64,000 bases of DNA, taken from contig JAJYEE010000001.1 of NCBI GenBank assembly GCA_021790335.1, positions 93,873 through 157,872 on the forward strand, written 5' to 3'. Positions 6,803 to 64,000 of the stretch are shown piece after piece. The DNA comes from Pseudomonadota bacterium. Lineage in GTDB: Bacteria > Pseudomonadota > Gammaproteobacteria > Acidiferrobacterales > UBA6901. Numbering within the stretch: the stretch's first letter is position 1; each line of letters starts with the position of its first letter. The notes below the pieces were generated by a model. That model ran no database searches. It was not told where the DNA came from and saw only the letters and a list, made by a program, of their open reading frames with translations. Position numbers and translations under genes: made by a program.

Positions 6803-8153
6803 CTCGTCGCACGGCGCGCGCTGGCGTGACGGCCTCGTGCGTGCCCGTGAGGTTCTGGATTCGCCCCCGCCCTTGGTGGTGGAAGGAAAACTTACGCGCA
6901 TGGTCGGGCTCACGCTGGAAGCTACCGGCTGTCAGGCGGCGATTGGAAGCCGCTGCCTCATTGCAGGTCCGCAGGGAGCAAATATCGAGGCCGAGGTGGT
7001 CGGTTTTGCTGGAGAGCGGCTATTCCTTATGCCTACCGGAGACATACGCGGACTTACGCCCAATGCGCGCGTGATTCCGAGCACATTGGTGTCCGAGGCG
7101 CATGTGGGCGACGCTCTGCTCGGGCGGGTTCTGGATGGCGCTGGAAATCCGCTGGATGGAAAGGGAAAAGTGCGAACCACCGCGCGCGTTCCGCTGACGG
7201 GGCGACCGATCAATCCATTGGCGCGAGCCCCGATCCGGGAGCCGCTCGATGTCGGCGTGCGCGCGATCAATGCGCTGTTTACTGTAGGGCGCGGACAACG
7301 GCTTGGGCTTTTTGCCGGAAGCGGAGTCGGCAAGAGCGTATTGCTCGGTATGATGACGCGCTTTACCACGGCCGATGTCATCGTGGTCGGATTGATCGGC
7401 GAGCGCGGTAGGGAAGTGAAGGAGTTCATCCAGAACATTTTGGGCACGCAGGGCATGGCGCGGGCGGTCGTGGTGGCGGTACCGGCGGATTACCCCCCTC
7501 TCATGCGCCTGCATGGCGCTATGCTGGCCACCAGCATTGCCGAGTATTTTCGGGACCAGGGACGTCAGGTTTTGCTGCTCATGGACTCGCTGACTCGCTA
7601 CGCGCAGGCGCAGCGCGAGATTGCCCTCGCCATTGGCGAGCCGCCGGCCACAAGGGGCTATCCGCCATCCGTGTTTGCCAGGTTGCCGCAGCTCGTGGAG
7701 CGTGCCGGAAATGGAGTGGCCGGCGGTGGATCGATCACCGCATTCTACACCGTGCTCACCGAAGGGGATGACCAGAATGATCCGATTGGTGATGCCGCGC
7801 GTGCCATTCTGGACGGACATATATTCCTTTCACGCCAGCTTGCCGAAAGCGGACACTACCCGGCCATCGACATCGAGGCTTCGATAAGCCGCGCGATGAA
7901 TGAGATTATCAAGGCACCGCAGCAGCAGTCTGCGCGGCGCTTCAAGCAGCTTTACTCGGTGTATCAGCAAAATCGCGATCTCGTCAGCGTCGGCGCCTAT
8001 ACGCGCGGAACGGATCAGCGCCTGGATGAAGCCATTGACTATCATCCTCGCCTTCTGGGGTTCCTGCGCCAGGATATGAACAAGGCCGTTCCACTAGCCA
8101 CAAGTCTGTCTGAACTTGCTGCACTTGTTCCAGAAGCAGTAGCTAAGCAGTGA
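6783..8153 (+). CDS. fliI: Flagellum-specific export ATPase FliI
   Basis: The 456-residue product resembles the F1 beta subunit. Walker A is [14 protein letters not shown] (about residue 175), Walker B is [14 protein letters not shown], and the family signature [18 protein letters not shown] is present. It drives loading and unfolding of export substrates at the base of the type III flagellar apparatus. It starts inside the fliH 3' end. A 52-bp spacer containing a run of nine A residues (about 8190-8198) separates it from fliJ. Confidence 0.97.
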
Positions 8154-58293: not shown

Positions 58294-58551
58294 ATGCCAT
58301 GATGCCCAGCGTCCGCAGGACCTGCAAGTGGCCGCCATCGGGACGCGCGCTGTCGTGGTCGCTCGCCTTGCGAGGTGGCATGCCACCGCTGCATTTTTGG
58401 TCCATTCGGGCGGCGCTGCGGGTGCTGGCGAATCAGTACGCTTCCACCTGCCGCTGAGGAGTTTCGCGGCTGCAACCGGTTAGGCATGCTGGGCGGTCCA
58501 GACTCGGTAGCGAGCGGATTGCCGCTTGTGACTCGGAAGGAGCGAGATAGT

Positions 58552-59985
58552 GTGACTGAAGCGTTCGATATCGCTGTCATCGGATCCGGCCCCGGAGGGT
58601 ATCGTGCCGCCGTACTCGGCGCGTTACGCGGCAAGCGTGTCGCGATCGTTGAGAAGCAGGACTGGGGCGGCTGCTGCTTGAACCGCGGATGTGTACCGAA
58701 GAAGGACTGGTACCACAGCGCCCGTCTGATTGCTGCGTCACGTACTTTCGCGGGGCGCGGAATCAGCGGGAGCCTGACGGTTGACCTGGCGCGCGCATGG
58801 GAGCACCAGGAGACCGTGGTGCGCATGGTGCAGGACAGCTACCTGGACTACATGAAGCGCCTGGGTATCAGCGTGTACAGCGGAACCGCTCGCTTTGCTT
58901 CTTTGCACGTACTGGATATTCTGGCCGGGGCCGGCTGCGAGCGCCTGCAGGCCGCTCATATCATAATTGCTACCGGATCGAAACCCACGGCGCCAGCGGG
59001 GCTTGTGCCGCAGGAGGGGCGCATCCTGACCTCGGACATGCTTTTCGATGATCCACCTCCGCCGGGACGGCGTGTCGCAGTCATCGGTGGCGGTCTGATT
59101 GGTGCCGAGTTCGCTTTTATACTGTCAATGCTTGGCCTGCAGGTGCACTGGATCACGCGTCGTTTGCCCCTGAGCCGAACCCGATTCAGCCCGCAGGCGC
59201 TGACTGCCCTCAAGGAAGCATTGCGCGACTGCGGTATTGAGCCGCTTGAAGGCACAAGCGTTACCAGCAGCGAGGTGCGCAATGGGGATCTGGTGCTTCG
59301 GCTTGCTGGGGGACGAGATCTGACCGTCGACTGGGCGCTGCTTGGCACAGGGCGTGCTCCGTTTACCGACGGACTTGCGCTCGACGCTGTCGGGATCGAA
59401 CTGGACGATCGCGGCTTCGTGCACGTGAACGAATGGCTGCAGACCAGCCTGCCGCATGTTTACGCGGTCGGCGACTGCGTATCCGAACACATGACCGCCA
59501 ATCAGGCACTCGCCGATGCCGCTGTTGCGGTGCAGAATATCGTCTCCGGCAGTTCGCCGCAGGCGCGGAGACGGCGCGATGTGCTGTGGGTGCCGGAAGT
59601 GGTTTACAGCGCCCTGGAGCTCGCGCGCATCGGCCTGAATGAGGACCTTGCGGAAGACGCCGGACTCGAGCCTGCGGTGGGTTTCGCAGCTTTCGAGAAA
59701 TCGCCGTGTGCCCTGGGCCAGGACGACACCCGCGGTTTCGTGCGTCTGATTGGAGAACTGGACAGCGGGGCGCTGCTGGGGGCGGAAGTGGTCGGGAGCG
59801 AAGCGGGGGAGCTGATCCATATGCTGGCGCTTGCACCGGATCATGTGTCCGCGCTCTCGCTGCTCGCACACGCCTGGGTCAATCACCCTACGCGGGCTGA
59901 GGAATTCGTCAATGCAGCCGAAACTTTGGCGAGCAAGTGGGGTCTCGCAGATCAAATATTCGGGGTATCGGATCGTGACAGGTGA
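58552..59985 (+). CDS. Dihydrolipoamide-dehydrogenase-like flavoprotein disulfide reductase
   Basis: The 477-residue product has an FAD-binding IAVIGSGPGGYRAAVLGALR and the redox-active disulfide GGCCLNRGCVPKK (CxxxxC). The NAD-binding VAVIGGGLIGAEFAFILSML, the second FAD motif VYAVGDCV, and the C-terminal His-Glu dyad in WVNHPTRAEEFVNAAE are present. No E1/E2 2-oxoacid dehydrogenase genes are nearby, so the partner disulfide is unknown; dihydrolipoamide, a MerA-like or other substrate is possible. GTG 58552 with AAGGAG nine bases upstream is preferred over earlier in-frame starts. Confidence 0.88.
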   Translation: MTEAFDIAVIGSGPGGYRAAVLGALRGKRVAIVEKQDWGGCCLNRGCVPKKDWYHSARLIAASRTFAGRGISGSLTVDLARAWEHQETVVRMVQDSYLDYMKRLGISVYSGTARFASLHVLDILAGAGCERLQAAHIIIATGSKPTAPAGLVPQEGRILTSDMLFDDPPPPGRRVAVIGGGLIGAEFAFILSMLGLQVHWITRRLPLSRTRFSPQALTALKEALRDCGIEPLEGTSVTSSEVRNGDLVLRLAGGRDLTVDWALLGTGRAPFTDGLALDAVGIELDDRGFVHVNEWLQTSLPHVYAVGDCVSEHMTANQALADAAVAVQNIVSGSSPQARRRRDVLWVPEVVYSALELARIGLNEDLAEDAGLEPAVGFAAFEKSPCALGQDDTRGFVRLIGELDSGALLGAEVVGSEAGELIHMLALAPDHVSALSLLAHAWVNHPTRAEEFVNAAETLASKWGLADQIFGVSDRDR

Positions 59986-60577: not shown

Positions 60578-62317
60578 CTAACGCTCGTTCATTTTGTCCA
60601 CCAGTGCGTGCAGTTCGCCGGTGTGGCGCGCGTTCAGCACATTTTCTGCGAACCTGCCCAGTTCGGTAAGATCGCTTTCACGCACAATCCTCTTGATTTC
60701 CAGCAGTGCGGAGGGGTGCATGCTGAATTCATCCAGGCCTAAGCCCAGTAACAGGCGCGTATAACGCGCGTCGCCGGCCATTTCACCACACATGGCGACG
60801 GGAATGCCGGCCGATTTCCCTGCGCGTATCGTCATTGAGATCAGCCGCAACACTGACGGGTGCAGCGGATCGTAGAGATAGTTCACCGCCTCGTCGACGC
60901 GGTCGATCGCAAGTGTGTACTGGATCAGATCGTTCGTGCCGATCGAAAAAAAGTCCAGGTGTGGCGCAAACAGGTCTGCTGAAACGGCCGCTGCCGGCAC
61001 CTCGATCATGCCGCCAACCTGCGTTTCCGGATCGAATGGCTGCCCCTGGTGTGTCAGTTCCGCCTTGGTCTCCTCGATAAGATCCAGAACGCGGAACATT
61101 TCCCCGAGGCTAGAAAGCATGGGGATCATGATACGCACTTGACCCAGCGCCGAAGCCCGCAGTATTGCCCGAAGCTGCGGCCGGAACAGCGATGTGTCAT
61201 GCAGGCACAGCCGCACGGCACGCAAGCCCAAGGCCGGATTTACGGTGATGGTTTCGCTGCCCCGACTGCTGCTATCGATGCGCTTATCAGCGCCGAGATC
61301 AAGCGTGCGTATCGTTACCGGTTTTCCGGGAATGGCCTTCACGACCTTCGCATAGGCCCGGTATTGTTCTTCTTCGTCAGGCAGATCGGTCCGGTTCATG
61401 AACAGGAACTCGGTACGGTACAGCCCGATTCCTTCGGCCGAGACTTTGTTTGCTCCTTTGATGTCATCCGGCAGTTCTATGTTTGCGTAAAGCTTGATCG
61501 CGCGTCCGTCGCGCGTTTCCGAGCGGCTGGCCTTGATGGTCTCCAGTTCGCGCTTGAGCTGGACTATCCTCTTCTGCCGCAGCTGGTACTCGGCGACGAC
61601 GCCGGGCTCGGGCAGCACAATCAGGACACCGAGCTTCCCGTCGACTATCAGCTGCTCGCCGCTGCGTATGGCGCGAGTGGCATTATGCACCGCAACGATG
61701 GCAGGGATTTCGAGGCTGCGAGCCAAGATCGCCGTGTGGGAAATCGGGCCTCCTAGATTGGATACGAACGCCGCGATGCGGGTGTGCTTGAGCAGCACTA
61801 TATCGGCGGGCGTGAGGTCGTTGGCGACCACGATTTGCCCGTCAAGCGCATCCGTTATCTGCTCATGTTCCTCATCGGTGGACACCAGCAGATTGCGCAG
61901 GATGCGGTCTACAACCTGACCTACGTCGGTTTTCTTGCTGCGCAGATAGGGATCGTCCATCTGCTCGAACACGGCGGAAAGTTCGTCGCTCTGCGTCTTG
62001 AGCGCCCACTCGGCGTTGCATCGTTTCTTGCGGATTGTGTCGACTGGAGCATCGCATATCATCTTGTCGTGCAGAATCAGCAGATGTGTGTCGATAATGC
62101 TCGAAATTTCGGGAGGTGCGGACTTCGGGATGTGGTCGCGTATGCTCTCGAGCTGGTTGCGTGCGGAATCGATTGCCGCAGTGAAGCGCTTGATCTCTTC
62201 TTCGATCAGGTTCTCCGGCAACGCATATTCCGGCACCTCCGGCCGTTCGCGGTGCAGCACGTGTGCCTTGCCAATGGCAATTCCGCTGCTGACGCCAGTT
62301 CCGTGCAGTACAAGCAT
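60578..62317 (-). CDS. ptsI: PTS enzyme I (phosphoenolpyruvate-protein phosphotransferase)
   Basis: The 579-residue product has the phosphoacceptor His194 in GGPISHTAILARS, a PEP-binding barrel with YRTEFLFMNRTDLP and IMIPMLSSLGEM, and the active-site Cys in GIPVAMCGEMAGD. It has no N-terminal GAF domain, so it is an EI rather than EI-Ntr type. It transfers phosphate from PEP to HPr. It follows ptsH by 5 bp. Confidence 0.97.
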   Translation of the reverse strand: MLVLHGTGVSSGIAIGKAHVLHRERPEVPEYALPENLIEEEIKRFTAAIDSARNQLESIRDHIPKSAPPEISSIIDTHLLILHDKMICDAPVDTIRKKRCNAEWALKTQSDELSAVFEQMDDPYLRSKKTDVGQVVDRILRNLLVSTDEEHEQITDALDGQIVVANDLTPADIVLLKHTRIAAFVSNLGGPISHTAILARSLEIPAIVAVHNATRAIRSGEQLIVDGKLGVLIVLPEPGVVAEYQLRQKRIVQLKRELETIKASRSETRDGRAIKLYANIELPDDIKGANKVSAEGIGLYRTEFLFMNRTDLPDEEEQYRAYAKVVKAIPGKPVTIRTLDLGADKRIDSSSRGSETITVNPALGLRAVRLCLHDTSLFRPQLRAILRASALGQVRIMIPMLSSLGEMFRVLDLIEETKAELTHQGQPFDPETQVGGMIEVPAAAVSADLFAPHLDFFSIGTNDLIQYTLAIDRVDEAVNYLYDPLHPSVLRLISMTIRAGKSAGIPVAMCGEMAGDARYTRLLLGLGLDEFSMHPSALLEIKRIVRESDLTELGRFAENVLNARHTGELHALVDKMNER

Positions 62318-62322
62318 GGCGT

Positions 62323-62592
62323 TTACTCTTCCTCGCCGAAGCGGTTATCCATCAAATTGCGCAAGGCCTGCATTGCTTCGTCCTCGTCCTTTCCGTCGAC
62401 ACGCAGGATAAGCCGGCTTCCTTGGCCGGCAGCCAGCATCATGATTCCCATGATGCTCTTTCCGTTCGCCTGGTGGCCATTGCGCTCCAGAATGATGTCA
62501 CTCTTGAACTGCGATGCAAGATTGACGAATTTCGCCGAAGCGCGTGCATGCATGCCGAGCTTGTTGATTACCGTTATGGTTGCATTCTTCAT
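62323..62592 (-). CDS. ptsH: HPr phosphocarrier protein
   Basis: The 89-residue HPr has the EI-phosphorylated His15 (LGMHARAS) and Ser46 (NGKSIMGIMML), the residue modified by HPr kinase. With hprK nearby, both phosphorylation states are possible. Its start overlaps the EIIA-like stop (ATGA) on the minus strand. Confidence 0.97.
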   Translation of the reverse strand: MKNATITVINKLGMHARASAKFVNLASQFKSDIILERNGHQANGKSIMGIMMLAAGQGSRLILRVDGKDEDEAMQALRNLMDNRFGEEE

Positions 62593-63002
62593 CGACGCGG
62601 CTCCGCCTTGCGCAGTTCCACTGGTGCCGACACTATGCCTTCGGGGCCGCCCGTCAGAGCTTTTGCGACGAGCCCTTTCATGTCCAGGCTGCGGTAATTC
62701 AGAATCCGGATGAGCATTGGAAGGTTCACGCCGCTTACGAGTTCGATGTGATTCTTTCTGAGGAGGCGGCAGGCCGTGTTGGTGTGGGACGCGCCATAAA
62801 TGTCAGCCAAAATCAGTACCCCCTGGCCATGGTCGAGCTGCGTCAGGCGTTCGGCGATAGCCTGCTCCAGAAGCTCCTGTGGCAGTTCATAGTCCACAGG
62901 AAAGGTCTCGACGCCAGGCGGCAGCTCGCCCAGAACGTGTTCCGCCGAGCGCAGTAATCCCTTGCCAAGATCTGCCTGAGCCAGAATCAACAGACCTATC
63001 AT
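62589..63002 (-). CDS. EIIA-Man-type PTS protein lacking the phosphorylated His
   Basis: The 137-residue product has the EIIA-Man/fructose fold: MIGLLILAQADLGKGLLRSA, VLILADIYGASHTNTACRLL, VSGVNLPMLIRILNYRSLDM and KALTGGPEGI. Family members carry an active-site His in the first loop (THG or AHA). Here the codon at residue 9 is CAG (Gln) in ILAQADLG. It is coupled to rapZ and ptsH by ATGA overlaps. Phosphate transfer at the normal site should be impossible, so it may be a pseudo-acceptor that works by binding. Confidence 0.88.
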   Translation of the reverse strand: MIGLLILAQADLGKGLLRSAEHVLGELPPGVETFPVDYELPQELLEQAIAERLTQLDHGQGVLILADIYGASHTNTACRLLRKNHIELVSGVNLPMLIRILNYRSLDMKGLVAKALTGGPEGIVSAPVELRKAEPRR

Positions 63003-63853
63003 GCCAACTCCCGGTGTCGAACCTGCACGTTTACCCCTTTGCGCGAAAAGTACTCCGCCAGCCTCCTGACCAGATATACCGAGCGATGCTGGCCTCCGGT
63101 ACACCCCAAAGCGATGGTCATGTAGCTGCGATGCTCCGCCTCGAAGCTCGGCAGCCAGTTCCCAAGGAAGTCGCATAGCTGTCCGAACATGGCTTGCACC
63201 CGCTTGTCTTTCTCGAGGAACTCCATGACCGGTGGATCGAGTCCTGTCAGCTTGCGCAGGTCGGCCTCCCAGTAGGGATTTGGAAGGCAGCGAACATCGA
63301 AAACGAAATCTGCATCAAGCGGGGTCCCGTTCTTGAACCCAAAGGACTCGAACATCAGGGTCATTCCCTCTGTATTATCGCTGCGCGCGAAGTTATGCAC
63401 CAGATGGCGCAGCTCGTGCGGGGTGGTATGGGTAGTGTCGACCCGCAGTGCGGCATTGGCAGACAGCGGCACGAGCAGCGCTTTCTCCTGACGAATTCCA
63501 TCCAGCAGCGGAATACCCCGCCTGGTGAGCGGGTGCTTGCGGCGCGTCGCCTTGAAGCGCGTGACCAGGACGGATTCCTCCGCCTCGAGAAAAATGATCT
63601 GATAACTCAATCCGATGGATTCGAGCTGGGCCAGCCCGGTCGGCAGGGCGTCAAGAAAGCGGTGATTGCGCGCGTCGATGCCGACCGCCGCGTTGCGCAG
63701 CTCGTCGCGCCCGCTTTCCATAATCTGGCGCGCGAAGTGCGGCAACAGCGCCGCCGGGAGGTTGTCTATGCAGTAGAACCCCATATCCTCCAGCGCCTGG
63801 AGCGCGATACTTTTTCCGGATCCGGAGAGCCCGCTGACTATCAGGAATGTCAT
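62999..63853 (-). CDS. rapZ: RapZ RNase adaptor / nucleotide-binding protein
   Basis: The 284-residue product, identical in length to E. coli RapZ, has Walker A GLSGSGKS (residues 8-15), GFYCIDNLPAALLPHFARQI, and a C-terminal domain with ALGCTGGQHRSVYLVRRLAE. In E. coli it directs RNase E to GlmZ and senses glucosamine-6-phosphate; outside enterics it lies in hprK/PTS clusters with less clear roles. ATG 63853 is chosen from the family's N terminus. Confidence 0.96.
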   Translation of the reverse strand: MTFLIVSGLSGSGKSIALQALEDMGFYCIDNLPAALLPHFARQIMESGRDELRNAAVGIDARNHRFLDALPTGLAQLESIGLSYQIIFLEAEESVLVTRFKATRRKHPLTRRGIPLLDGIRQEKALLVPLSANAALRVDTTHTTPHELRHLVHNFARSDNTEGMTLMFESFGFKNGTPLDADFVFDVRCLPNPYWEADLRKLTGLDPPVMEFLEKDKRVQAMFGQLCDFLGNWLPSFEAEHRSYMTIALGCTGGQHRSVYLVRRLAEYFSRKGVNVQVRHRELA

Positions 63854-63917
63854 GTCTGGAGTCGCCCCGGTGCAGGGCCTGCTGGTGTCTCCGGAACTCT
63901 GATGAACCGGTATGTCA

Positions 63918-64000
63918 TCATTTCTCGGCACCTTGCATGGCCGCTTCCTGCCGCTTCACTATGTCGTCCAGCGGGTTCACTCCGCGCATGCGGAGTATAT
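63918..64000 (-). CDS. hprK: 3' end of HPr kinase/phosphorylase HprK, truncated by window edge
   Basis: The minus-strand frame entering from the right edge reads LRMRGVNPLDDIVKRQEAAM and stops at 63918-63920. This resembles the C-terminal tail of proteobacterial HprK (LRxRGxx...FxxRQ). The position before rapZ, an EIIA, ptsH and ptsI is where hprK lies in many proteobacteria. Only about 27 residues are visible, without catalytic motifs, so the call leans on context. Confidence 0.6.
   Translation of the reverse strand, partial: ILRMRGVNPLDDIVKRQEAAMQGAEK

Follow-up and report, generated by a model that had tools for sequence, protein, structure and literature searches.

Can a protein of the EIIA-Man type that lacks the histidine at its canonical phosphoacceptor position still end a phosphotransferase (PTS) relay, and if so, which residue would receive the phosphate? 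This question is raised by a gene at positions 62589-63002 on the minus strand of the window, the whole stretch of 64,000 nucleotides analysed here, which starts with ATG and encodes a protein of 137 amino acids. The Gln9 codon of this gene (CAG, positions 62976-62978, minus strand) aligns with His10 of E. coli IIA-Man, in agreement with an initial annotation made from the sequence alone, which had reported that a glutamine replaces the phosphoaccepting histidine and had suggested that the protein could be a pseudo-acceptor.

The EIIA-Man gene and its operon

The assignment of the gene to its family is supported by a match to the EIIA-man Pfam profile (PF03610; 53.5 bits against a cut-off of 21.4), by a phmmer alignment with E. 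coli IIA-Man, and by an AlphaFold2 model (pLDDT 80.3) that has the IIA-Man fold and finds its best fold matches among IIA-Man structures. The gene is joined to both neighbours by ATGA overlaps, one between the rapZ stop and the EIIA start and the other between the EIIA stop and the ptsH start, which confirms the coupling to rapZ and ptsH noted earlier. On the same strand, ptsH (62323-62592; PF00381, 103.1 bits) encodes an HPr with His15 and Ser46, ptsI (60578-62317) encodes an Enzyme I (EI) of 579 amino acids that keeps its active-site histidine (GGPISHTAI), and the rapZ open reading frame as listed (62999-63931, with a later ATG at 63853 as the likelier start) contains the RapZ N and C domains. 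Read past the edge of the window, the operon has the order kdsD-kdsC-lptC-lptA-lptB-rpoN-hpf-hprK-rapZ-EIIA-ptsH-ptsI, in which gene names were assigned by eye from the translations except for the four genes tested with Pfam and hprK. Compared with regulatory PTSs of the PTS-Ntr/HprK type, the window's genome (a 109-contig draft, 97.6% complete) has EI, HPr and HprK but is without PtsN and without a GAF domain on EI such as that of EI-Ntr, only the three EI domains being matched in Pfam profile searches. A dihydrolipoamide dehydrogenase-like gene (58375-59985, plus strand) is convergent with ptsI. A functional tie to this gene was rejected, as it lies beside the operon within the genus only, among the loci checked.

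Comparison with E. coli IIA-Man (the A domain of ManX; 1PDO, 1VRC, 2JZN) shows that the two proteins have their family, their fold, Asp67 (codon 62802-62804, minus strand), Ser72 and Asn75 in common, whereas the window protein has Gln9 for His10 and His73 (CAC, 62784-62786, minus strand) for Pro73, and stands alone without EIIB or EIIC. Gly91 and Asn93 are also present, and the proposed HPr-contact residues (Asn75 together with the Gly and Asn of the GxNxP motif) are kept. In the AlphaFold2 model, helix alpha3 falls in the segment that carries His73. The initial annotation had described the rest of the fold as intact, which holds for the overall IIA-Man fold, but it overlooked that the active-site Pro73 is now a histidine. 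By descent and fold the window protein is an EIIA-Man, although by the defining phosphoacceptor residue it falls outside the canonical form; it is a variant, 'EIIA-Man with His73', set apart from the standard members.

Solved structures place positions 9 and 73 in one pocket. The active imidazole of E. coli IIA-Man is ringed by Gly71, Ser72, Pro73 and Phe36, joined by Met23 and Leu24 from the second subunit, while the buried carboxylate of Asp67 orients the catalytic histidine, Ser72 positions the phosphate, and Asn75 is a proposed HPr contact (PMC7587183). In the EIIA of S. agalactiae, His9 is contacted at van der Waals distance by Pro69, which corresponds to position 73 (PMC6837340). Since this proline packs against the catalytic histidine, the two residues that swap identity in the window protein touch in solved structures.

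Positions 9 and 73 across homologues and on the operon tree

Both positions were compared across 198 non-redundant EIIA-Man sequences from Pseudomonadota genomes, gathered from the order, the class and the phylum. Position 73 is near-universally proline in EIIA-Man, and His9/Pro73 is the state of 143 sequences. Another 46 have His73 with a residue other than histidine at position 9, five have both histidines, one each has His9/Gln73 and His9/Ala73, and two have neither histidine (Gln9/Pro73 in locus L137 and Arg9/Gln73 in L228). Histidine at position 73 is found in 46 of 48 sequences without His9 versus 5 of 150 with it, and in the alignment of homologues from the window's order every sequence without His9 has His73. 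The surrounding motif reads D67-x-x-G-x-S/T-H-x-N, where other EIIA-Man have proline in place of the histidine. Asp67, Gly70, His73, Asn75 and Gly91 do not vary among the 46 sequences, and only Ser or Thr occurs at position 72. Position 9, which comes no higher than 67th when the 119 columns are ordered by conservation, is occupied by Gln (33 sequences), Tyr (4), Glu (3), Phe (2), Pro (2), Leu (1) or Thr (1). Since all of these residues occur within the clade, the glutamine is not a selected pseudo-acceptor residue, and specific selection of Gln9 is ruled out. The initial annotation had asked whether the glutamine is conserved in a clade; it is the loss of His9 that is fixed, and not the residue that replaced it.

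EIIA alone is too short for resolving deep forks, and the history of the operon was followed on an unrooted tree of RapZ, HPr and EI that excludes L225, from the distant lineage f104, and the fragment L038. On this tree the sampled His73 forms fall in one clade of 50 rows (SH-aLRT 99) that combines the window's order with a single neighbouring order, and His73 was gained once. The minimum number of changes is two at position 73, and at position 9 it is five when scored as His or non-His and eleven when scored by residue. We would like to stress that most of the 46 sequences share one ancestry and hence represent fewer than 46 independent events. Forms with both histidines are found in both orders (L152 and L153; L025, L055 and L057). 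The operon of L054 (G050:C402), nested inside the His73 clade, has a His9/Pro73 EIIA; this apparent reversal may be a reversal proper, a local recombination, or a misbinned contig from another organism.

Outside this clade, Gln9/His73 occurs in one genome of f104 (L225/L227), with sisters that have His9/Gln73 and Arg9/Gln73, and this lineage probably gained the combination independently. At the f104 loci L227-L229, HPr and EI are fused in one open reading frame (L225/L227 and L228) that adjoins EIIA-Man; no rapZ lies alongside these loci, and an ilvD-like gene is found upstream.

A general rule that no homologue lacks both histidines is false, with L137 and L228 as the exceptions. In L137 (also L215, positions 7004-7450, in G086), Asn75 is replaced by Arg and the EIIA gene lies away from ptsHI, which sit on another contig, while the family members L205 and L206 keep His9/Pro73 and are located beside HPr. 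Judged from its sequence, the EIIA of L137/L215 is likely a genuine pseudo-acceptor and offers a contrast case to the His73 forms. L228 likewise has histidine at neither position, and its gene is found next to an open reading frame in which HPr, its histidine intact, is fused to EI.

Partner proteins and competing explanations

HPr keeps His15 and Ser46 in 48 of 48 His73-type loci in which it was found, HPr Arg17 is invariant, and the EI active-site histidine is kept in 45 of 47 His73-type loci, the other two being unreadable. Profile searches found no ptsN (PF00359) in the window's genome, in the six other genomes of its family (f1), in any of the f4 genomes, or in two single-contig genomes of the order (G012 and G023). 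Likewise, EIIB-sorb (PF03830) and EIIC (PF02378) were absent from 41 genomes, namely that of the window and 40 relatives, which extends the earlier remark that neither is nearby. As these three are absent, EIIA-Man is the only EIIA found in a search that covered EIIA-Ntr, EIIB-sorb and EIIC; within the same scope, the system has EI, HPr and HprK with no permease. With EI and HPr His15 conserved and f1 and f4 yielding no further EIIA, an acceptor would be needed, and the window EIIA is the candidate.

EIIA-Ntr has been lost in f1, f4 and most of f7. Just past the right end of the window (L002:10742-11732), a gap of about 1 kb between hpf and hprK contains no recognisable gene where relatives have ptsN, and a search for a degenerate ptsN in this gap gave no match in the locus. 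The idea that His73 arose in response to ptsN loss is unsupported, ptsN being present in His73 genomes (e.g., G007, G013, G017 and G155). HPr residue 14, just ahead of the active histidine, is Met in 30 of 44 cases with non-His9/His73 EIIA and Leu in 134 of 140 with His9/Pro73; co-adaptation at this residue is suggestive but not significant given ancestry, with too few independent pairs on the tree.

Four alternatives to a relocated acceptor were weighed. The first, raised by the initial annotation, is a true pseudo-acceptor that would never be phosphorylated and would bind HPr, HprK, RapZ or another partner, with His73 as a binding or structural residue. The canonical histidine is indeed missing across the whole clade, and L137 shows that acceptor-less forms occur. 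However, His73 is invariant wherever the clade has lost His9, and it lies in the original pocket, where Asp67 and Ser/Thr72 persist, while EI and HPr His15 have been conserved despite the lack of any other EIIA found in f1 and f4. The loss of His9 is therefore real, but the near-constant presence of His73 in its absence, together with the retention of the EI histidine and of HPr His15 and Ser46, favours a relocated acceptor over a dead one, and we regard a true pseudo-acceptor as unlikely. A repurposed pocket, serving for example as a small-molecule site or as one in which His73, Asp67 and the partner subunit's His22 bind metal, seems quite improbable: these three residues could meet at the dimer interface, but Ser/Thr72 is retained, as are Asn75 and Gly91 on the side facing HPr, the gene is still coupled to ptsH, and some members lack His22.

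Still less credible is phosphorylation of His22 itself (RSAEHVLG; codon 62937-62939, minus strand), which the initial annotation had named as an alternative acceptor and which would have to reach the pocket from the other dimer subunit. Its counterpart in E. coli, Met23 of the neighbouring subunit, adjoins His10 (PMC7587183), and His22 is present in 43 of the 46 proteins with His73 but not His9. Three of these proteins (L044, L052 and L059), however, lack both His9 and His22 and yet have His73, and the occurrence of His22 in 53 of 143 ordinary His9/Pro73 proteins marks it as background variation. Finally, an assembly or sequencing error at Gln9, conceivable in a draft of this kind, has a negligible probability and is refuted by relatives, since the five genomes of the genus and the two remaining genomes of the family all have Gln9, which recurs in further genomes of the order, with both CAG and CAA codons occurring in the clade.

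A candidate relocated phosphoacceptor

The explanation that we consider likely, on comparative grounds, is that the relay of a permease-less regulatory PTS still ends at the window protein, an EIIA-Man-type terminal phosphoacceptor whose acceptor histidine has shifted from position 9 to position 73. His9, at the end of strand beta1, has been replaced and Pro73, in the neighbouring beta3/alpha3 loop, has become histidine, with Asp67 and Ser/Thr72 of the pocket and the proposed HPr-contact Asn75 retained. Phosphate would then pass from PEP through EI and His15 of HPr to His73, in the same pocket and at the same HPr-docking face, and HprK would act as a brake by phosphorylating HPr Ser46, slowing transfer. 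As for the order of events, His73 would have come first, giving a two-histidine intermediate that survives in some genomes, after which His9 would no longer have been needed, and position 9 would have drifted along several branches to Q, E, Y, F, L, T or P. We lean towards such a relocation of the phosphohistidine within one pocket, from the beta1-alpha1 loop to the start of alpha3 by way of two-histidine intermediates, as having taken place once in the order-level clade and probably again in f104, with one apparent reversal (L054). Counting against relocation, L137 and L228 show that a homologue can persist without either histidine. The literature searched, mostly outside subscription papers, held no earlier report of His73 and nothing on point concerning EIIA proteins without the conserved histidine or relocated active sites.

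The closest known systems offer some guidance as to the output. In other Gammaproteobacteria, rpoN-hpf-ptsN-hprK-rapZ-EIIA-ptsH-ptsI operons have the same surrounding gene order as the window, but their EIIA-Man is His9/Pro73, in contrast to Gln9/His73 with ptsN absent. The orphan EIIA-Man-like proteins of Alphaproteobacteria (Brucella PtsM and Rhizobium ManX) likewise have no permease and are encoded near hprK and an HPr/NPr gene; those sampled are His9/Pro73 and coexist with PtsN, unlike in the window's genome. In Brucella the protein receives phosphate from P~NPr and interacts with SucA (PMC2937029), and in R. leguminosarum ManX serves as a terminal acceptor and influences the TCA cycle (PMC13104625). 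By likeness to these relatives, the window EIIA may act on central carbon metabolism, probably exerting its control through protein-protein contacts.

If the acceptor has indeed been relocated, HPr would have to deliver phosphate to a displaced acceptor without any change in its own active-site residues, and an active-site residue would have made a traceable move within a phosphorelay while the partner proteins and the operon stayed as they were; the two end states and the two-histidine intermediate would all still be represented among sequenced genomes. This would caution against calling such proteins inactive because the canonical histidine is missing. It would also provide a minimal PTS, consisting of EI, HPr, HprK and the one EIIA found, for learning what orphan EIIA-Man proteins regulate.
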